Assembly: GCA_003550305.1 (NCBI GenBank)
Contig: QKYT01000102.1
Location: 188,051 to 252,050, forward strand
Reading direction: 5' to 3'
DNA from: Glomus cerebriforme
Lineage: Eukaryota > Glomeromycota > Glomeromycetes > Glomerales > Glomeraceae
Length of the DNA: 64,000 nucleotides
In this document: piece after piece, positions 2,992 through 31,946 of the stretch
Layout: every line of letters begins with the position of its first letter
Numbering within the stretch: the stretch's first letter is position 1
Notes under the pieces: model-generated
Told to the model about the DNA's origin: nothing
What the model saw: the letters and a program-made list of their open reading frames with translations, nothing else
Databases searched by the model: none
Made by a program: the position numbers and the translations under genes

Positions 2992-3278
2992 GGCCTAGCA
3001 CGAAGTTCCTTTAGAAGTTAAGCAGCTTTTTGCAGAGTTGACGCATGGGTTTGGTTCAGCAGGGAAAGGCTTTTCTGACGTATAAATTTGGTGAAAATTT
3101 TCTTAAAATAATTTTAAATTTTGTTTTTGGTGGTAAAAAAATGAAAGGACATCAAGAATTTCAGGCTCGTGAAGACAAATACCAAACTGGCTTTAGGTTT
3201 TCTGTATATCACTATATCAAGTCTGCTAACCTTGGCTGCAGATTTAAAAGAACTACTGTGGAGTGGTTTCTCTGATGG
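2992..3278 (+). mobile_element. 5' part of retroposon copy 2, split by the Gypsy insertion
   Basis: This GC-richer segment runs from the end of the 15-bp duplication to the first base of the 5' LTR. By position it is the 5' part of the retroposon whose 3' part resumes at 16188. It contains an open stretch (about 3045-3275, 76 codons) that stops just before the LTR and may be a leftover of an element ORF; no domain is recognised. Copy 1 is not clearly similar over this part, so continuity rests mainly on the flanking duplications. Confidence 0.5.
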
Positions 3279-4207
3279 TGTAGCCAAAGTTATAGCATAG
3301 ATCACGAAAATATTACAGTTAATAATAATATTTATAGTATAATAATTAACATTTATATTTAAATAGTTTATTTATAGTTTAATTTATTTATTTATAGTTT
3401 AATTAGTTTGATTTATTTATCCGTAATTGTATTTTTTATTTAACAATTAGCCTTTTTTTTCTCATAAATTTGAAAACTATGACTAAAGAAGGAATCAATT
3501 GGGTTAAATATTCATTTTTATGATAAAGTATAAAAGAACCTTGTGTTTCTAGTGCATTTATGCAAAAAACTTGTTTATCTAAATAACTTGCCAGTATAGT
3601 TTAGTTTATTAACACGTGATTTAGCATGTGACTTAACACATAATTAGAACATTGTAGAACATTGTAGAACATTATAAAGAATTATAGGATTATAGGAAAA
3701 GAGTCATTGCAGATCATTTAATGGAGGAATACAATTACATCATAAAGGGATAATTTATTTATAATTTAGTAAAACATATAGAAATAAGAGAAAGAATGAA
3801 ATAAATGAAGTATTACAATTAGTTAATGAAATATAGTTTAGTAAAATGTAAAAAGTTATTTAAACCAAAGGATTTTCCTTTTGTAAATTTTTAGCATTTT
3901 AACTCAAGAAAAATAAAAATAAAAATATTAATATTGATTTATTAAAGGTTATTTTGAATATGCTCATTGTTCACTTGAGAATTGGTTAATATTAATATTA
4001 AATATTAAAAGAATAAAAATGAAATATGGGGAAATTATTTAAGTTTAATTATTTAATGAAGAAACATTTAATGTAAGGAAAATTATCACAGTTTGAAAGT
4101 TAAATTTAAAAATTATAAAGAAACAATAAAATTATTAAGATTTAAACCAAGCATATTTTAAATGGAAAATTAATTCTTATAAGGATAAGTGGCAGTTATC
4201 CGTTGCA
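3279..4207 (+). repeat. 5' LTR of Ty3/Gypsy retrotransposon
   Basis: A 929-bp LTR beginning TGTAGCC and ending TTGCA, the usual TG...CA form. It matches 15410-16187 along its length with substitutions and indels. It carries about 175 bp (roughly 3420-3594) missing from the 3' LTR, including a TATA-like TATAAAAG at 3529-3536 that probably is the element's promoter. The four bases before it (ATGG, 3275-3278) match the four after the 3' LTR, a probable short target duplication. LTR divergence means that the insertion is not recent. Confidence 0.85.
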
Positions 4208-7154: not shown

Positions 7155-8405
7155 ATGTCTGATATATACAAAGATTTAGAAAGGAATAAGGCATTACATG
7201 AGAAAGAAAAGCATGAGGAAAATGGAAAAAGATATAAGTAGATCCTTCATGTTTAAAATGTTACAAAGTAAAAGAAAGGACAGAACTGGAGTGGTTCAAG
7301 AAATTTTGGAGAATCTTTCGGAAAGTAATACTAGAGGCAATAGATTATAATAGGAATACTATTGAAAAGTTAGCAGGGTATATAAGATTAACAAGGAAAA
7401 ATAGAGAAAAGAAATATATATTTGACTGAAAGAAAAGACAAGAAGAATTAGCGAGCGTTATGGAAAAAGGAGAAAAGTTATTAGATGTAATTGTGATATC
7501 GATAAGGTACAGAAATAAATCAGATTACAAGAAAATAGGGATTGTATTAGTAATAAAAATAATCTGTGAGCACTATATGTTTAATAAAAATGATAATTTA
7601 ATAATAAGGGAAAAAGAAACAGAAGAAAATTTATTAGGAAATAGAAAATTATTAAAATATGGGTATATTATAGAAGATGACGAAGTAGATAGGAGATTTG
7701 TGAAATTAGAAGAATGGCTTAGAGAAAAAGAAATAGCAATTATGGATATAGGACATGATACTATGAGCCATTTCAAAGAAATGTTACATATGGAAGAAAG
7801 TATAGCTAATGAAGAAAGTAGAGATACAGTTAGGAAATTTCAGAAAAGTTTAACGTATCGATGGTGGGATAGTAAATATCAATAATCATGGAAAAATATT
7901 GATTTGACAAATAAAATACAGAAATAATAAGAAAAATAGTTGAAGAAAAAAGTTTTGTAAGAGAATATGAAGATGTAGAAGAATTGGAAAGTTCAGAAGA
8001 GAAAGTGAATTGGGACAAGTAGAGAAATTAATTAAAGAATGGAAAGGAGAAGAAGATATAAGAACAATAGGAAAAATAAATTTAATGTTAGAAAAAGAAT
8101 ATGAATTAGAAGAAATAGAAAGGAACGAATTAATAAGAAATGTATTAATAGATAATGAAGTAGATATTCAAGAGTTAAAAAGGAAATTAGAGGATGGAAA
8201 GTTACCATTAAGAGTAAAAGGAAAAATGACTTTAAAAAACAAAGATGATGATGAAAGAGAAAAAGAGATAATCATTGCAGAAAAATGGAGAGAAAAAGGA
8301 CATATTAGTATTACCATTGCCAAAATAAAAAGATTATTAAGATTAGGATATGATGAATCCAGAGTAGAAAATGATATAGAATTGATAAATAGTGTAAGTA
8401 CGTAA
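7155..8405 (+). pseudogene. Gypsy ORF B, unknown protein with CLKC motif (frameshifted)
   Basis: A coding-like block moves through three frames: 7155-7238, then 7241-7885, about 7921-8000, and 8010-8405. Stops at 7235 (TAA), 7426 (TGA) and 7883 (TAA) interrupt it. An early CLKCYKVKERTELEWF segment (from about 7250) has a CxxC pair and Trp residues, possibly half of a zinc site. Later parts are charged, Leu/Ile/Glu-rich and helical. Continuity across frame changes suggests one ancestral ORF, perhaps continuous with the Cys-rich block that follows. No homologous family is recognised. Confidence 0.45.
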
Positions 8406-8443
8406 GATATAGAAATTTATTAGATGACGAACTTAAAATTAAA

Positions 8444-9469
8444 TTGAATGAATTAGATGATGAAACAGAAACTGAGAAAAGATTGAAAGGATTAGAGAGG
8501 ATAAATGAAAGTTTAGGAGTTAATATTACTGAGGAAGAATTAGTAAGATTAATAAAAATGGAATTTAAAAATGTTGATATCATAAATAAGGAATTTATAA
8601 AATTATTCCAAGAAAATAAGAATGAAAAAGAGGAAAATATAAAAGAAATATTAGATGAATATTTGAGAAAACAAATAGAAATAGGAGAATTGAGTAAAAA
8701 GGAAGAAAAAAAGAAAGAAAAATATTTGGGATGTCCAGGATACAGTTGTAGTGAATATGCATATTTCAGAACACCAAAATATTTTTAAGGAGAAATGACT
8801 CAAGAAAAGAAATGTGTAAAATGTGATTGGAAAATACCAAGAGTTGGTGGAAAAATAAGACAAGCAATGGAAGAACATTGTGAAAAATGCCATTTAGGAA
8901 AAAGAACATTTGAAGGATGTGAAATGTGTGAAAAACCATAAAAAGAATGTAAATGTTTATACAGAGAACATGGATAAGAATGTATAGAAATAGAATGTAT
9001 ATGGGTAATAAGAGATGAATATGAAGAATTCAGTAAAAGGGAAGAATCATTTAAAAAAGAAATAAGAGAAGGAGAATATTTTTGGAATGGAGAAAAATAT
9101 GAGAAAATAAAAGCAATTATAACTGAAGATATAGATGAATGGATAAGAGAAAACATGGAAAGCTTTGGAATGAAAGATAATGATAAAGAAGAAAATTTAG
9201 AATGTAAAATATGTGGAAATAAGGGATATAATGAAGAAAATTGTGTAAAAAAGAAAGGAAAAAGATTTCAAGATAGAAAAGAAATAGATTATTGGGAAGA
9301 AAATATTGAGGACGAAAAGGATGATACAGATAATTCAGAGAAAATTGGAGAAATTCTAAGTCCAGGAGAACATGAAGAATGGAATGAAAATATTGAAAAT
9401 ATAAATGAAAATGAAATTGAAGATGAATTACAAAATATTATAAATACAGGATGTTTTGGCCTATCTTAA
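8444..9469 (+). pseudogene. Gypsy ORF C, Cys-rich zinc-ribbon-like region in frame with Gag
   Basis: One frame, the same one as Gag, broken by TAA at 8786, 8939, 8975 and 9467. After a charged helical N-terminal part it has clustered Cys pairs: CPGYSC (about 8738), CVKC (about 8814), HCEKCH (about 8878), CEMC (about 8921), CKCLY (about 8951), and CKICGNKGYNEENC near 9201. The spacing resembles one or more zinc ribbons, the last being knuckle-like. A highly acidic segment leads into Gag. Canonical Ty3/Gypsy elements have nothing comparable upstream of Gag. It may act as an extra nucleic-acid-binding part of the polyprotein; this is inference. Confidence 0.5.
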
Positions 9470-11713
9470 AATTCAGAATTGAATAGTTTATTATTAAATT
9501 TTGAAAATTCTGATATCGAAAATGAATTATCTGATTACAATTTACAAGAATTATTTCAAGAAAATACAATATTGAATATGGCAACTAAAGATCAAGTAGC
9601 AAGACTTTTGGAAAAAGCAACGGGATTACCTGATGGAACATTAAACAATGTTTTAGCATCAGGAGAAAGTATGGCAGATAGTATTGCAAATGCAGGGAAT
9701 GAAACCGGTATAGTAAATATGCTATCTTTTAATGAAAGAGAAGATGAAGGTGTTAGTGATTGGGTAAGAAAGTTTGAAGTAGTATTTACGGTAATGGAAA
9801 AAGCAGCAGGAACTAATGATACAAGACAAGCAGTATATGCGGCATCATGTTTGAATGGCATAGCATTACAATGGTATAATGAAATGAAAGAGGCGAATGC
9901 AGGAAATTTAGTAAATTGGGCAAATAATAATAATGATAATGATTTGAAACATAGAATTAAAGAAAGATTTACTAGAGAAGATGTTAGAAAAAGAAAAATG
10001 ATAGAATTAGCAAGAATGAAGCAAGAAAAAAATGAGAGTATTGAAGATTATATTAGGAGATTTAGAGCAGTATTAAGAATAGCAACTAGAGGACACGTAT
10101 TAGATAATATGTACCAAGTAAATTATTTTATTCAAGGATTAGAACCTATATTAGGATATCAAGTTAGGAAAACTAATCCAGCAAATTTAAATAATGCAAT
10201 TGATAAAGCAAGAAAGGAAGAGGAATCTAGAAATGAATTAATAATGAAAATAACAAGGTTAGATAAAGGACAAACAGGACAAGAAAGAAGTATGGAAGAA
10301 ATTTTAAATGAAGAAACAAATAAATATAAGAAAACAAATCTAATCGCCAAAGAATTACAGAATAAAGAAGTTAAAAATGATGAAATGAATAATTTGATTA
10401 ATAGAATGAAAAGAATGGAAGCACATATGATGAGAATAAGTGAAAATAATAGAAAGCCAATGAGAAATAATAATGTTGATTGGAGTAAAATGACTTGTTA
10501 TAGATGTGAAAAACAAGAACACACTGCAAATGTTTGTAAGGAAAATCAAAGAGGAATGAATAGAAGAAACAACCAAGTCAATTATATGGATGAAGAGTAT
10601 TATGATGAAGAATATAATGTTTATAATATGGAATGTGAAGATTACAATGAATATGACAGGTATAATGAATATGAATATGATGAATACAATGCCTATGAAA
10701 TGGAAAATGAAGATTATGTTAAAGAAAATAATATATATCCAGTATCAACTAGAAGAAGTAAAAGAAATAAAGATAAAGTTATGAATGATGAAAGGGAAAG
10801 AAGAAGAAATGTACAATGGCAATAACAATAACAAAAAGCTTAAACGGAAAGAAAAGGGTTCACACCAGAACAATTATAAAAGGAAAAGGAAATAAGAAGA
10901 AGAAATAATGTATATCAAAATTGTGATCAAAATGGACATTTTACTAAAGAATGTACAAATGAGAAAGTAAGGATAAATTGTAGAGTACCAAATACTGAGA
11001 AATTTGATCCAGTTAAAGGAATAATGAATGTATCAATAGCAATGATATGGGGACAATATATAAGAGAAAAACCTAATGTAGCAAGAAAATTAAGGAATGG
11101 TTTGAAGTATTGACTACACTCGGGAGAAATAAAGAATATTAATCAGGAAAAAAGGACACAAGCAACCAGATGTAATGTAATTGTTAAGGGAAAAATGATA
11201 AGAGCATTAGTAAATATAGGAGCAGGACCATCAGCAATATCTAATATATTAAGGAAAGAGTTAAATATACCAATAATTAAGAAAAGTAATATCATATTAA
11301 TGATAATAGATGGTAAAAGTATAGCATTATTGGGAATAGCAGAAATAGAAATAGAAATCGATGTAGATTTAGGAATAATGTTAGAAGTGGAAGTGATCGA
11401 TTCAAGACAGAAAGATTTGATATTAGGAACCGATTTGTTAAAATATGGAATAATAGATATGAGAGAAGGAATGTTAACTATAAAATTAGACAATGAAACT
11501 TATGAAATACCAATTGATTATAAAGGAAGAAAAGAAGTTACTTTTGAAGAATCAGAAAGTGAGACTGAATCTGATACAGATGTAGAAAAAGAAAATGATA
11601 GTATCAGTGATTCCAATGAGGAATCAGAGAATGAATATGAAAATACAGAGAAAGAAGAAATATTTTCCTTTGTGGAAAATACTGAAAAGAAAAGGAAAAA
11701 TAAAGTAAAATGA
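9470..11713 (+). pseudogene. gag-pr: Gypsy Gag-protease polyprotein (broken)
   Basis: The frame continues from ORF C; an internal ATG at 9578 is the likeliest Gag start. The retrotransposon Gag core (about 9700-10250) has the typical ALQWYNEM segment and IEDYIRRFR helix. A CCHC knuckle follows at 10496-10537 (C-x2-C-x4-H-x4-C), then a Tyr/Asp/Glu-rich tail. A second knuckle at 10913-10954 has Tyr for its first Cys. Stops cluster at 10823-10875, plus TGA near 11114. Protease lies at about 11160-11510; its active-site triad reads N-I-G-A (11213-11224) instead of D-T-G-A, so it is inactive. An acidic tail ends at TGA 11711, overlapping the pol ATG as ATGA. Confidence 0.85.
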
Positions 11714-14204
11714 GTAGTCTTGGCCTGAAAGAGAAAGAGATGATAAAGATGCCAAAAGAAAGTAAAGAAGAAAAATTTGAAAAGAAAACATATTTGGGAG
11801 AAATGAGTAATGAAAGGAAAGAAATGTTTAAAGAATTAGTAAAAGAATATGAAGATATATTTGAATATGATGAAGAAAAATTGGGAAGAGTTAACAAAGT
11901 TAAACATAATATTGAGATCAAAGAAAATCAAGAACCAATAGCATAGAAAAGATATAGAAAAACTGATGAAAAAGGAAAATTTATAAAAAAAGAAGTTGAT
12001 CAGTTATTAGAAATGGGTAAAATAAGGAAATCATGAAGTCCATGGGTATCTCCAGTAACATTAGCAGGAAAAAAAAATGGAAATTATAGATTTTGTATTG
12101 ATTATAGGAAATTAAATAATGTAACTAAGTTGGATGCGTACTAATTACCAAAAATTGATGAATTATTAGAAAAATTTAGAAAAGGAAATTGGTTTACAAG
12201 TCTAGATTTAGCAGCAGGATATCATCAAGTAGAAATGGCAGAAGAAGATAAGAAAAAGACAGCATTTATATGTTCACAAGGATTATATGAATATAATATT
12301 ATGCCATTTGGATTAAAGAATGCATTGGAAACATTTCAGAGATTAATGGATGAAATATTAGAAGAATATATTGGAGAATTTGTTACAATGTATTTAGATA
12401 ATATAATGATCTACTCAAGAGATTTTAGGAAATATTTAGAATATGTTGATAAAATATTGAATAAATTAAGAGAGAATAACATGATTGCAAAATTGAAGAA
12501 ATGTCAATTTGGATTGAGAAATATAAACTTTTTAGGACACATAGTAGGAAAAGATGGTTTAAGATCAGATGAGAAAAAGGTTGAAAAGATAAAGAATATA
12601 AGAAACTAAAGATTGTTACAAAAGTAAGATCATTTTTAGGATTATGTTCATATTATAGAAGATTTATAAAGGATTTTGCAAGAATTGCAAAACCTTTACA
12701 TAATTTAACAAGAAAGGATAAAGAATTTGAATGGAAAGAAGAGTAACAGGAAGCATTTGACATATTAAGAGTAAAATTAACAGAGAAACTAATTCTAGTG
12801 TATCCAAATTTTGATAAGGAATTTATGTTAATAACGGATGGATCTAAGATAGGATTAGGAGTAGTATTAGCTCAAATGAATGAAGAAAATAAAGAAGTTG
12901 TAATAGTGTATAGGAGTAGAAGTACAGTTGGAGTAGAAAAGAATTATCTGATAACAGAATTGGAATGTTTAGCTGTATTTTGGAGAATAAAGCATTTTCA
13001 GAAATATCTAGTAGGAAGAAAATTTACTGTAATAACAGATCATGCAGCTTTGAAAGGATTAACAGATGTGAAAGAACAGATAGGGAGAAGAGTAAGATGG
13101 GTAACGAAATTACAACAGTTTGATTTTAAAATAGTTCACAGAAGTGGAAAGGAAATAAAGAATACAGATGCATTATCAAGATTGAAATTTGAAGAAAAAG
13201 TTATAAAAGGAAGTCTTAAAGACTTAAATCAGGAAATAAATAAAATGGATTATAATAAAGAAAAGAAATTAAGATATGTTAAATCAGGAAGTAAATGGTT
13301 TGATGCCAAAAGATTTAAAGGAAGATGGGATGATATAAAATATTTTAATGATAAGGAAGCAGTATTATTAGATTTAGAAAACGAAATAGAGAAAGAATTG
13401 TTAAAGAAATTAGGAAGGAAAAATAAACCACAAGTTATTATTATTGATGGAGTAGATGGTATAGAAAAATCTACTGTAGTAGAAAATATAATTAAACAAT
13501 TGGAAAAAAAAGGATTAAAAGTAAAATTTAACACATTTAAAAGAAGAAGAAATGATGATGAAAGATTTAAAGAACTATCGAAAAAGTATGAATAGTTATT
13601 TAGAAAATAAGTTGTAGAAGAAATTAATAGGAGAATAGTAGAATTTACAGATGAGAATGTAGTAATATTAGATAAATCACCGTATTGTGAATATTTTTAT
13701 CAGAAAACTGAGAGTTTTGATAGAGGATATATTAGTCCATATGGGAATCATAAGATGGAGAAAGAAATATTTAAATATAAAGAAATTATAGATAATGCAA
13801 TAGTAATTTTCTTAGAAAATAAAGAATGTTGGAATAATTATATAGGAAGAGAAACTAAGAAAAGTAGTGGAGAACATAAAGCATCTTATGAAACATTGAA
13901 TGAAAAAGAATATATGGATATGATTAAAATGTTTAAGGAACATTAGAATATTTATGAGAATGAAGGAAAATACAGAAAAGTAGAAATCAAAAATAATAAC
14001 AAAAGTTGGGAAAAGTATATAAACAAATCAAAAGATTGCTAAAAGAACAAAATGACTACTGAAAATATTGGATTAGAAATATACATATTTATTATACACG
14101 AAAATATAAGTTATCATTGTATATTATTTGAAGATAAAGAATTGAAGTTTATTTTACCTTTTGAAATAGAACTAGAAAATATATTAAGGAATGGAAGAGA
14201 ATAA
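11710..14204 (+). pseudogene. pol: Gypsy Pol: RT, RNase H and thymidylate-kinase-like domain (broken)
   Basis: Starts at ATG 11710 inside the ATGA overlap. RT occupies about 11940-12640: SLDLAAGYHQ (near 12200) keeps the first catalytic Asp, but the YxDD box reads YLDN (12391-12402), removing one. Stops lie at 11944, 12034 and 12142, and a frameshift near 12606 precedes the RSFLGLCSYYRRF segment. RNase H (about 12820-13190) keeps LITDGS, TELEC and ITDHAAL acidic residues. Downstream, in the same frame, comes a P-loop kinase (about 13425-14050): GVDGIEKST at 13449-13475 and DKSPYCEYFYQ at 13671-13703, matching the Walker A and DR(Y/S)...YQ motifs of thymidylate/deoxynucleotide kinases. Stops at 12744, 13593, 13608, 13944 and 14040. 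Confidence 0.88.
13425..14050 (+). pseudogene. Thymidylate/dNMP-kinase-like domain inside Gypsy Pol
   Basis: A beta strand (PQVIIIDG) leads into GVDGIEKST; in the family the sixth P-loop position is Gly, here Glu (13464-13466), with Lys and Ser/Thr kept. EKKGLKVKFNTFKRRR resembles the beta2 region carrying the substrate-site Arg. VVILDKSPYCEYFYQ corresponds to the DR(Y/S) motif with Lys in place of Arg, followed by the conserved YQ. NAIVIFLEN fits the beta4 strand, followed by a lid-like basic segment (GRETKKSSGEHK). About 200 residues, the usual length for the family. The host CDC8 at 31005-31946 has clearly different motif residues, so this is not a recent local capture. It would supply dTTP precursor or other dNDPs for reverse transcription; that role is inference. 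Confidence 0.72.
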
Positions 14205-15378
14205 ATATAATGAAATAGTTAAAAATATAGATAAAGAACAAAATTATAGAATTAAAGATAGTTTATTATATAGGATAAAAGATAACAAGAATTTAAGAGT
14301 GATTAAGAAATGGGAATTTGAAGGATTAATGTATATTGTACATGATCATGAATTATTAGAACATTTTGGAATTGAAGTAACATATGGAAGAATTAAAGAC
14401 AAATATTACTGGGAAGGAATGAGACGAGATATAGAAATATATGTTAAATCATGCGATAATTGTCAAAGAAGAGGAAAACTGATTGGAAAACATGAATTGA
14501 ATATAATCAAAGTTAAGGAACTATTTTACCAGATTGGAATTGATGTAGTAGGATCATTACCGATAACAGAAAGGAAAAATAGATACATTGTTACAGCGAT
14601 AGATTATTTTACTAAATGGCCAGAAGTTAGAGTATTAGAAACAGCTGACGCTAAAGGAATTGTAAGATTTATTTATGAAGATATAATATATAGGCACGGA
14701 TGTCCAAAGAAAATATTAAGTGATAGAGGAAGTTATTTCAATAATGAATTAGTAAGATTGTTAATGAAAGAATTTCAGATAAAACATAATTTTTTAACAT
14801 CATATCATCCAAAAACAAATGAATTAATTGAAAGATTTAATAAGACGTTATGTGAATCATTAGCAAAGTTGAATAAAATTGAAGATTGGGATCTAAAAAT
14901 ACCAGGAGTTCTATTCGCATATTGAACCAAAAAGAATGATTCAACAAAAATAGAATTAGAATATCTAATGTATGGGAGACAAATGAAAATACTACTAAAT
15001 TTGAAAGATAGAGAAATTACTATGATAGATAGAATCAACGGATTAATCGAAGAATTACCAAAAATTAGGAACTAAGCCAGGGAAAATATCAAGAAATCTC
15101 AAGATAAACAGAAATTATATCACGATAAGAAAAATAAGTTAAAGAAGAAATTTCAGATAGGAGATAAAGTATTGTATTACAATGCAGCAAAAGAAAAACA
15201 ATGGTCTGGAAAACTAGAAGAAAAATGGAAAGGATCTTATTATATACATGAAACAATTTCCAAAGGATCATATAAGATTAAAACTATAGAAGGAAAGATA
15301 TTGAAAATACTAGTAAATGGTGAATTGTTGAAAGAATATATAGATAAATTGAATTTTGAAGTTATAGTTCAAATTTGA
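14191..15378 (+). pseudogene. int: Gypsy integrase (broken)
   Basis: Begins at ATG 14191, overlapping the end of the preceding frame (TAA 14202-14204) in a shifted frame. The H-H-C-C zinc domain lies at about 14341-14465 (HDHELLEHFG ... CDNCQ). The core keeps the three acidic residues: D in QIGIDVVG (about 14540), D in LSDRG (about 14720), E in LIERFNKTL (about 14828). LFAY is followed by TGA at 14923 where the family has Arg (AYRT), and TAA lies near 15073. The C-terminal GPY/F-type module (IGDKVLYY ... WKGSYYI) has Ser for the Pro of GPY. No chromodomain is visible. The frame ends at TGA 15376-15378, just before the polypurine tract. Confidence 0.88.
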
Positions 15379-15409: not shown

Positions 15410-16187
15410 TGTAGCTAAAGTTATAGCATAGATCACGAAAAGATTACAGTTAGTAATAATATTTATAGTATAATAATTAACATTTATATTTTAAATAGTT
15501 TATTTATAGTTTAATTTATTTATTTATAGTTTGATTTATTTATAGTTTAGTTTATTAACACGTGATTTAACGCGTGACTTAACACATGATTAGAACATTG
15601 TAGAACATTATAAAGAATTATAGGATTGTAGGAAAAGAGAATAGATAATGGAAAATTATGATGATCGGCATAATTAATTATGAGTCATTGCAGATCATTT
15701 AATAGAGGAGTACAATTACATTATAAAGGGGTAATTTATTTATAGTTTAGTGAAACATATAGAAATAAGAGAAAGAATGAAAGAAATGAAGTATTATAAA
15801 TAGTTAGTAAAACATAGTTTAGTGAAATGTAAAGTTATTTAAACCAAAGGATTTTCCTTTTGTAAAATTTTTAGCTTTTTAGCTCAAGAAAAATAAAAAT
15901 AAAAATATTAATATTGATTCATTAAAGATTATTTTAAATATGCTCATTGTTTACTTGAGAATTGGTTAATATTAATATTAAATATTAAAAGAATAAAAAT
16001 GAAATATGAGAAAATTATCCAAGTTTAATTATTTAATGAAGAGACATTTAATGTAAGAGAAATTATCACAGTTTGAAAGTTAAATTTAAAAATTATAAAG
16101 AAACAATGATATTATTAAAATTTAAACCAAGCATATTTTAAATGGAAAATTAATTCTTGTAAAGATAAGTAGCAGTTATCCATTACA
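15410..16187 (+). repeat. 3' LTR of Ty3/Gypsy retrotransposon
   Basis: A 778-bp LTR beginning TGTAGCT and ending TTACA, homologous to 3279-4207. It lacks the roughly 175-bp TATA-containing segment of the 5' LTR and has about 43 bp (about 15639-15681) that the 5' LTR lacks. It is followed by ATGG (16188-16191), matching the four bases before the 5' LTR. Confidence 0.85.
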
Positions 16188-17198
16188 ATGGGAGATGGGG
16201 AGGTACTTGAATTTTTGATTGACAGCCAATCATCTGTTGATGATTAGTTTTCTTATTGTTACATTTTTCTTGGTTTTTGTTTTACAGTGGTGATCCCTAT
16301 TTTTGTCTCTTAAGGTGATATTATTAGTTATTGAATAGAAAATTAAATAAAAAGAATAAAAGGGTGCGAAAGATGTTAGGTGCGTATTTGGATATGTTAA
16401 TTGGGTAGAATTAGTTTGGGTGTACAGAAGCAAGGCTATTATCTTTTTGCAATAGGTATATCAAGGATGAAGATTCTTCGATAAGGTCAGAGAAGATGGT
16501 TCAAAAAGTTTTGGGTAAGTAGTCGTCTCGATTTACTGGAACATGTTAGGATGTCTTTGGGCCGTGAGGAATTGGCTTATTTTGGGAAGATCTCACTAGA
16601 TTAGCATCGGGTTCTATTTGGCATGGATTCAAATAGATAGATTGGCAAGATATCAGGTGATAGTCTTTAGACAAAACAGTATAAGCAGTCGACTCGATTC
16701 ATTTGGAGCATCTGTTAGGACGACCTGTGAATTGTACTAAACCTGGTAGGATAGTTGTAAAGGTAGAAGTAGGTTTAGTTTCTTTTTTGTATTTTTAGTT
16801 TTAGTATTAGATAGTTTACCTTTCTTTCTGAATGTTGGTACTAATAGCTGGTATCTATAAATTCTTTTACAAAAGAGCAATAACTTTTATAACAAATCAT
16901 ATTAATTTGAAGACTCAATGAGATTGTGGGAAGATTTAGGAGGACTGATTAAAAGGTTTTTTATTTAGTACTAGCATTGGAATATGGGAAAGATTCAGAG
17001 TATATTAACTATCTAAAGAGGGTCTTGCTTCAGTCCCTACTCTGAGAACTTATGTTACGTAAGTGCGACATGCTGAAATTTTTTATTAGTTAGAAGTTTT
17101 ATATCTGAGCTATATAATTTTATTTGCTATTGTATTCTGGATATTGCCTATTGATTTACAGAATAAAGTTCATGATTTAGCACGTCTTCAAAAAAAAA
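16188..17198 (+). mobile_element. 3' part of poly(A) retroposon copy 2
   Basis: From about 16210 this is the inverted homologue of 1911-2870. It ends with AATAAA (17162-17167), a short spacer and an A run (about 17190-17198), then the 15-bp duplication at 17200-17214. Together with 2992-3278 it makes a roughly 1.3-kb element interrupted by the Gypsy insertion. No open frame is present. Relative to copy 1 it shows many T-for-C and A-for-G differences, in line with greater age or stronger deamination. Confidence 0.7.
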
Positions 17199-31004: not shown

Positions 31005-31946
31005 TTAAGAAGTTGCTTTCCACAAATCTTCTTTTAAAGGTAATTGACTACATTTTTCAATTAGTTTTAAAGAATATTCTACAATTCGTTTATGTAACAA
31101 TTCAACAGATTGATTAGCATTTAAAATTCTCCATAAAGAATCCTTATCACTATCTTTTTCTTTTAACATATAAAATATTTTACGGACTTTTTCCTGTAAG
31201 GATTTTTTTTCATAGCGTTCCTCACCAAATCCCCCTCTTTTCTCGGCTTCTTCAGCAGTTAAATCCATAAAAAATATTACATCTGGGCTTAACAATCCTA
31301 TATCTGGCGAACAACACCAATTTAAATCCAACCCCTAATAAATTATTATTTATTTATTTGGTTTTTTTTTAAAAAAAAAAAAAGATTTAGAGGAAGACAA
31401 AATAGAAAAGTTAAGAAAAAAGTTTTTTTTTTTTTTTTTTTTTTTTACCTTGGCGGCTGAATACGAAACACCGGAATACGCATATCTATCCACAATCAAT
31501 GTTTTTCCGCTAAGTAGTAAATTTTTCATGGCTTTCCTATAACAAATAAATTTGATTTGTTTAATTATTTACACTTAAAGAAAATTTTTGTTACAAACTT
31601 ACATACGCTCCCATCTATTCACAGAAAATAACAAATGAATTGCTTTATCATCTAACTCGTACTCATTTGCTAAATACGCGTTAATAATTTGCCCAATTTT
31701 CGTTTTTCGATCTAAAAAAAAATTTTTTATATTATAGATAATTAAAATAATATTGTAAACACGTTATTCGTTGCTTTCTCAATATATACCAGGAAACTTC
31801 AAAAGTTCAACGGAATGCCCATTATTTCTTAAATATTCAAAAAGTTTATTAGCTTGTGTTGATTTCCCTGCTTTATCACACCCTTCGAAAAGAATAAAAG
31901 CTCCACGTTTTTTAATATTGATTATGTCGCTATTTACTAAAGCCAT
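31005..31946 (-). CDS. CDC8: Thymidylate kinase
   Basis: Phosphorylates dTMP to dTDP for DNA synthesis. Four exons, the first (31790-31946) starting at ATG 31946. Exon 1 has the P-loop FEGCDKAGKST. Exon 2 (about 31607-31711) has DRKTKIGQIINAYL and LLFSVNRWE. Exon 3 has LIVDRYAYSGVSYS, the DRY motif with the Ser and Tyr typical of eukaryotic TMPK. Exon 4 has DLNWC, the LSPDVIFFMDL strand and a lid-like RGGFGEERYEKKSLQEKVRKIF, ending at TAA 31005. About 210 residues, the normal size. The exon 2/3 junction was set by frame and could be off by a few codons. It is unlike the kinase-like domain at 13425-14050. Confidence 0.93.

Follow-up and report, generated by a model that had tools for sequence, protein, structure and literature searches.

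A 64,000-nucleotide stretch of the genome of Glomus cerebriforme, an arbuscular mycorrhizal fungus (contig QKYT01000102.1, positions 188,051 to 252,050; hereafter the window) contains a 12.9-kb Ty3/Gypsy long terminal repeat (LTR) retrotransposon with a P-loop kinase domain between RNase H and integrase. In the reading that we consider probable, a Ty3/Gypsy clade of the Glomeraceae has captured and retained, behind RNase H, a kinase belonging to the thymidylate kinase/deoxynucleoside kinase (TMPK/dNK) superfamily, which would phosphorylate a deoxynucleotide for cDNA synthesis. Directly supported are the predicted fold, the place of the domain, the motifs that its relatives conserve, the purifying selection seen when copies are compared, and the grouping of the sampled kinase-bearing integrases. 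As predicted from the sequences, the kinase in most forms is the end of the reading frame for reverse transcriptase (RT) and RNase H, just before the integrase.

A preliminary description, made from the window sequence alone, had reported that the RNase H frame passes into a P-loop (GVDGIEKST), and this was borne out: the frame is open from 12747 to 13592, for 282 amino acids, and enters the P-loop without a frame change. Beyond two stop codons (13593 and 13608) the same frame continues, in the order described there, with the DKSPYCEYFYQ motif, a strand and a basic stretch. A kinase domain does lie at 13425 to 14050, where the domain had been placed, but the homologous region begins upstream, with an N-terminal extension from approximately 13239.

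Membership of the kinase in the TMPK/dNK superfamily is supported by profile matches and by structure prediction. A search of the 112.5-Mb genome with PHROG 761 (phage thymidylate kinase) returned ten matches, seven of them copies of the element (the window copy and six sisters); the remaining three are two host genes (CDC8 and a dNK-like gene) and one weak place. The window match covers 13401–14003 (E = 1.8e-8, profile positions 10–200). The same profile reached a best E of 2.5e-16 for the kinase family, 1.4e-8 for L031 (the sister-copy fragment with the longest natural open frame, 167 amino acids), and 8e-6 for a window piece, with no match to the C-terminal window piece. PF02223 (Thymidylate_kin) exceeded 27 bits in four relatives, P0022 (32.7), P0125 (30.2), P0006 (28.9) and P0026 (28.6), and was below the cut-off or absent in the other members compared; TIGR00041 (NCBIfam) reached 32.9 bits at best, far under the 83.25 that it requires. 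The AlphaFold predicted model has the kinase fold of the superfamily, and its matches to P-loop nucleotide kinases in the PDB extend over the whole domain. Assignment to the thymidylate or deoxynucleoside monophosphate (dNMP) kinase family, as first proposed, holds at the level of the superfamily, with thymidylate as a possible substrate; the dNK and TMPK folds are tied.

Conservation spans several active-site segments, the P-loop and beyond. The pattern GxDGxGK[ST] occurs in 77 of the 93 domain matches that cover the P-loop; the window copy itself departs from GxxGxGK[ST], with glutamate replacing the glycine that precedes the lysine. The lysine of D-K-S, within the counterpart of DR(Y/H/S), is present in all 99 domain matches, and the arginine of the LID-like segment in 104 of 105. 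The catalytic glutamate of an EPV-type motif is typical for deoxynucleoside kinases; at that position, by alignment to one dNK-like gene, the element kinase has the asparagine of FNTFKRRR, which is kept in 95 of 97 relatives with F-K-R-R-R next to it.

The kinase segment is present at no fewer than 13 retroelement loci of the genome, the window included. RNase H and integrase flank it at nine of these, in agreement with the place first described for it, which also recurs in proteins of other species; RNase H alone is found at two loci (one at a contig end) and integrase alone at two. The median ratio of nonsynonymous to synonymous substitution rates (dN/dS, Nei–Gojobori) was 0.29 for the kinase (55 pairs), beside 0.31 for the protease (taken over 11114–11503), 0.19 for RT, 0.30 for RNase H, 0.25 for the N-terminal extension and 0.33 for the integrase; these medians exclude the divergent loci L036 and L040, pairs of fewer than 30 codons, and the integrase of a second element in L039. 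In the deep pair formed by the window copy and L036, the kinase ratio (dN 0.154, dS 0.99) is the lowest of these six regions. Overall, as long as the elements were alive, the kinase was constrained to about the same degree as the other parts of Pol. The same genome also has kinase-less Ty3 elements, and the three examined (L065, L066 and L067) have different sequence at that place. Before the integrase, each of these three has a segment containing Cys and His residues, and an HPxMxxxxLVNxxxWxEP-like stretch in it is common to all three.

Relatives were found beyond this genome. With a natural fragment of a sister copy as query, 42 database proteins were matched at E ≤ 0.01 with 46–86% identity (129 candidates). 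A profile search retained 928 of 7611 candidates at E ≤ 10, and among the best 120 SRP54/FtsY-type P-loop proteins begin at approximately 4e-3. The kinase family seems to stand apart, within reach of profile search, because from about that value the matches turn into SRP54/FtsY-type proteins. The kinase part of P0043 as query retrieved 65 proteins (2014 candidates), with RNase H domains in 26 and integrase H2C2 in six by precomputed Pfam annotation. Members with species names come from G. cerebriforme, Rhizophagus irregularis, R. clarus and R. diaphanus; metagenomes contribute others. RT, RNase H and kinase are joined in P0123, P0135 and P0121 (the RNase H of P0121 lacks one stretch), and RNase H and kinase in P0043 and P0046. 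RNase H, kinase and integrase are joined in P0126, an R. clarus gene model, and kinase and integrase in P0125, an R. irregularis gene model in which Thymidylate_kin, H2C2 and rve all pass their cut-offs; the fused relatives are gene models, and introns may be hidden in them. A 264-amino-acid form with a predicted start methionine of its own (P0012–P0014, P0017 and P0018) is similar to the start of P0052, an R. clarus gene model that continues into integrase.

A tree was made from 27 integrase rows, in which one branch (support 100/99) separates the 15 kinase-bearing integrases, from four species, from the 12 kinase-less ones. The latter were hand-picked from 116 integrase matches and are kinase-less in having no kinase match nearby, which truncated copies could conceal; of 30 rows gathered, L032, L040 and P0068 were dropped as shorter than 120 residues. 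The tree is without an outgroup, so gain and loss are not distinguished, and the simplest reading would be a single capture that preceded or accompanied the spread among the Glomeraceae sampled. Trees of RNase H and of the kinase (16 proteins plus the window copy) agree only partly, with an identity correlation of 0.38 over 136 pairs; the kinase is more alike than RNase H in 61 of these. Two of the proteins, P0129 and P0132, resemble mosaics or nested gene models.

Candidate donors of the kinase were also considered. Host CDC8 (31083–31889, minus strand) has DRYAYSG, and on this motif comparison it was rejected as the source, its motifs differing from those of the element kinase as the preliminary description had remarked. 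Pattern scans of IMG/VR and of species-level prokaryote genomes gave no relative of the kinase. In phage records, tblastn of P0022 gave no match and tblastn of P0013 gave weak ones in seven records (best E = 8e-3), two of which carry the annotation FtsY and one thymidylate kinase. A prokaryotic, phage or giant-virus donor is unsupported by these scans and searches. Besides the window CDC8, a second Thymidylate_kin match lies at G000:C931:17803-18246 (62 bits with neighbours).

Several observations weigh against a captured and functional TMPK/dNK-superfamily kinase. DR(Y/H) is the thymidylate kinase motif, and the element has DKS in its place. Over the genome, PF02223 matches CDC8 and the host-type place on C931, but among element copies only the one on C1013, below the cut-off; the window and L031 pieces also fall under the Pfam cut-off, the window pieces with sub-threshold P-loop matches only. 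Searching Pfam with the kinase domain, as the preliminary description had recommended, placed four relatives but not the window copy above the threshold for Thymidylate_kin. KTI12 passes its Pfam cut-off in five of ten members, as do NB-ARC (P0001), MeaB, NTPase_1 and cobW (P0006) and NPHP3_N (P0026), mostly at the P-loop end. FtsY tops the PDB sequence search (E = 9e-6, against 0.16 for TMK), and a single-sequence PDB search gave nothing significant (best E = 0.58). E. coli Tmk is alignable at the P-loop alone. The kinase frame is unbroken in none of the 13 element copies of G. cerebriforme. In the deep pair of the window copy and L040, the ratio is higher for the kinase (0.30) than for the integrase (0.21), and the nearest copy, L030, is without kinase constraint (proportions of nonsynonymous and synonymous differences, pN and pS, of 0.046 and 0.045), as expected from post-insertion decay.

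Another point against it is the alignment of the element kinase with the host dNK-like gene, an unbroken frame of 361 amino acids (L059:1078-2163, G000:C358:158552-159637; PF01712 E = 6e-30). The hhalign comparison, which takes in part of the N-terminal extension, spans 171 columns with a probability of 96.6 and an E of 5.8e-10, and P0013 matches this frame directly (E = 1.5e-9, 29% identity), as its sole match in the genome outside the element copies. The kinase could accordingly be a deoxynucleoside kinase serving deoxynucleoside salvage and related to a dNK gene like that of the host, because E. coli Tmk aligns at the P-loop alone and the host gene over 171 columns. Deoxyadenosine kinase (dAK) stands in the first Foldseek rows, and D-K-S-x-Y is similar to the dNK motif (D/E)RS. 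We nevertheless regard this explanation as rather unlikely: the dNK-like glutamate is aligned with the conserved asparagine and its basic neighbours, and PF01712 reached 14.8–18 of the required 27 bits in the four members with reported bit scores (three members in another search, best E = 1.6e-4). The long N-terminal part of the host gene aligns partly with the retroelement kinase extension.

Less credible again is a non-metabolic role, in which a P-loop NTPase or nucleotide-binding module would aid RT–RNase H folding, act on nucleic-acid ends, or space RNase H from integrase. Unrelated P-loop families do score about equally in Pfam, and the other sequence in L065–L067 looks as if inserts were tolerated at that place; but the conserved active-site segments besides the P-loop, the kinase matches over the whole domain, and the separate start methionine predicted for the 264-amino-acid relatives make such a role improbable. 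That a host or viral kinase gene was inserted by chance into one element and is functionless for it is scarcely believable, even with the window copy and the 12 others all broken, since the domain occupies the same place at 13 or more loci, in four species and in metagenomes, and since purifying selection and the integrase tree contradict it. A unique insertion, or pseudogene noise, is rejected on the number of loci, the selection and the tree; the preliminary description had reckoned with such an insertion, or with the lack of any profile or structural match, and a structural match was obtained for a segment that is multi-copy.

The kinase frame stops at one position in all ten copies that cover it, the window included (TGA in eight, TAA in two), and an ATG overlaps this stop in seven of the ten. 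In the window, when the reading frame seen in other copies is followed, the TGA of the kinase (14060–14062) is overlapped by the ATG of a 50-amino-acid open reading frame (ORF; pN/pS 0.44 over nine copies, the window included), whose TAA (14202–14204) overlaps the integrase ORF, with its first ATG at 14191–14193. The integrase had been thought to continue the kinase frame; it does not, the kinase ending at its own TGA with the 50-amino-acid ORF intervening. No convincing in-phase splice pair for an intron across the kinase–integrase gap was seen by eye in the copy alignment. The kinase/50-amino-acid ORF and 50-amino-acid ORF/integrase junctions form two consecutive stop–start overlaps. The end of R. 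irregularis P0005 is similar, by eye, to the C-terminus of the 50-amino-acid ORF.

Under the favoured reading of a captured superfamily kinase kept for cDNA synthesis, the kinase would be translated as the C-terminal part of the RT–RNase H polyprotein and, free or attached, would be held beside the reverse transcriptase. It would phosphorylate a deoxynucleotide with ATP, probably converting dNMP to the diphosphate (dNDP); dNMP is the probable substrate because the dNK base carboxylate is replaced by the conserved asparagine and the acceptor site is rich in lysine and arginine. Host nucleoside diphosphate kinase would complete the conversion to the triphosphate (dNTP), which would thereby become available for making cDNA in hyphae and spores whose dNTP pools are low. 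Somewhat less firmly, we lean towards a lineage that encodes its own deoxynucleotide kinase in Pol and makes part of the RT substrate on the spot, with the integrase in separate overlapping small frames and with stop–start overlaps or splicing separating enzyme supply from integration.

The window element is bounded by a target site duplication, ATGG, at both outer LTR sides (3275–3278 and 16188–16191). Its LTRs are identical in 686 of 731 aligned columns (93.8%), and judged from them the insertion is not recent. Transitions account for 39 of the 45 LTR differences, which could point to methylation-linked decay. The order protease–RT–RNase H–integrase is present with the kinase as an additional domain, the protease lying under the Pfam cut-off and the integrase tail having weak SH3-like matches. 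The window copy is dead, because its kinase frame has stops at 13593, 13608 and, next in frame, 13944, and because, close to where the kinase ends, it lacks one base that the other aligned copies have, the unshifted frame then hitting a stop at 14040. Between the 5' LTR and gag lies a leader of approximately 5 kb with extra frames at 7971–9469, for which no Pfam match was better than E = 0.03.

Table 1 Features of the retrotransposon in the window (positions are those of the window).
Feature	Position	Strand	Remarks
5' LTR	3279..4207	+	TG...CA, 929 bp
gag frame	9470..10825	+	Retrotrans_gag PF03732 E 3e-13; Ty3 capsid PF19259 E 5e-7; weak CCHC zinc knuckle
Aspartic protease region of pol	11114..11713	+	PF13975 E 7e-4, below cut-off
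Reverse transcriptase fragment	12145..12609	+	PF00078 E 7e-29
RNase H	12747..13190	+	PF17917 E 2e-32
Kinase N-terminal extension	13239..13421	+	Common to relatives whose predicted start Met falls here
TMPK/dNK-superfamily kinase domain (supported), broken	13422..14062	+	Stops 13593, 13608, 13944, then one-base shift
P-loop (Walker A) GVDGIEKST	13449..13475	+	
FNTFKRRR	13527..13550	+	Asn aligned with Glu in ETVxxW of host dNK-like gene
DKSPYCEYFYQ	13671..13703	+	Counterpart of DR(Y/H/S)
LID-like basic RETKK	13848..13862	+	
50-amino-acid ORF between kinase and integrase	14052..14204	+	Conserved among copies
Integrase, broken in window copy	14191..15378	+	H2C2 PF17921 E 8.5e-19; rve core PF00665 E 1.7e-10
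3' LTR	15410..16187	+	778 bp

Retroelements and retroviruses rely on host dNTP pools, a dependence that hosts exploit. The kinase suggests that these elements help to supply their own DNA building blocks, and a selected kinase in Pol makes self-provisioning of reverse transcription by a retroelement directly testable; this is relevant in these fungi, where dNTPs may be scarce in hyphae and spores. A caution also follows for annotation, in that Rhizophagus 'thymidylate kinase-like' gene models can be transposon parts. As far as the searches go, parts of the system had been seen before, under 'thymidylate kinase-like' database labels, and the system itself is not described in the literature searched. 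No description of a nucleotide kinase in a retroelement was found in the open-access library searched. A term search of the main text found none within an element in PMC3248453, PMC2864245, PMC9289625, PMC8647823 and PMC11075540; the word 'kinase' is absent from the first three, and its mentions in PMC8647823 (10) and PMC11075540 (1) stand, where displayed, in passages on protein kinases or gene families.

Compared with thymidylate kinase (Tmk/CDC8; PF02223, TIGR00041, PHROG 761), the element kinase differs in its DKS, its N-terminal extension and its fusion to RNase H; compared with the dNK family (dCK, dGK and dAK; PF01712), it differs in having asparagine for the EPV-type glutamate, together with FKRRR. 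An orchid Ty3/Gypsy lineage with a 2-ODD (m6A demethylase-like) domain, as described in PMC9289625, has likewise captured a catalytic domain, but as an extra ORF, with other chemistry and in plants. The nearest precedent is the dUTPase-bearing Ty3/Gypsy elements of fungi, PosPlaTy3 of Postia placenta and earlier cases from Phanerochaete and Tuber, whose dUTPases were seemingly acquired independently from different sources (PMC2864245). These too are LTR elements whose Pol has captured a dNTP-pool enzyme; their dUTPase lies at the N-terminus, at the C-terminus or at the junction of protease and RT, whereas the P-loop kinase described here lies between RNase H and integrase.
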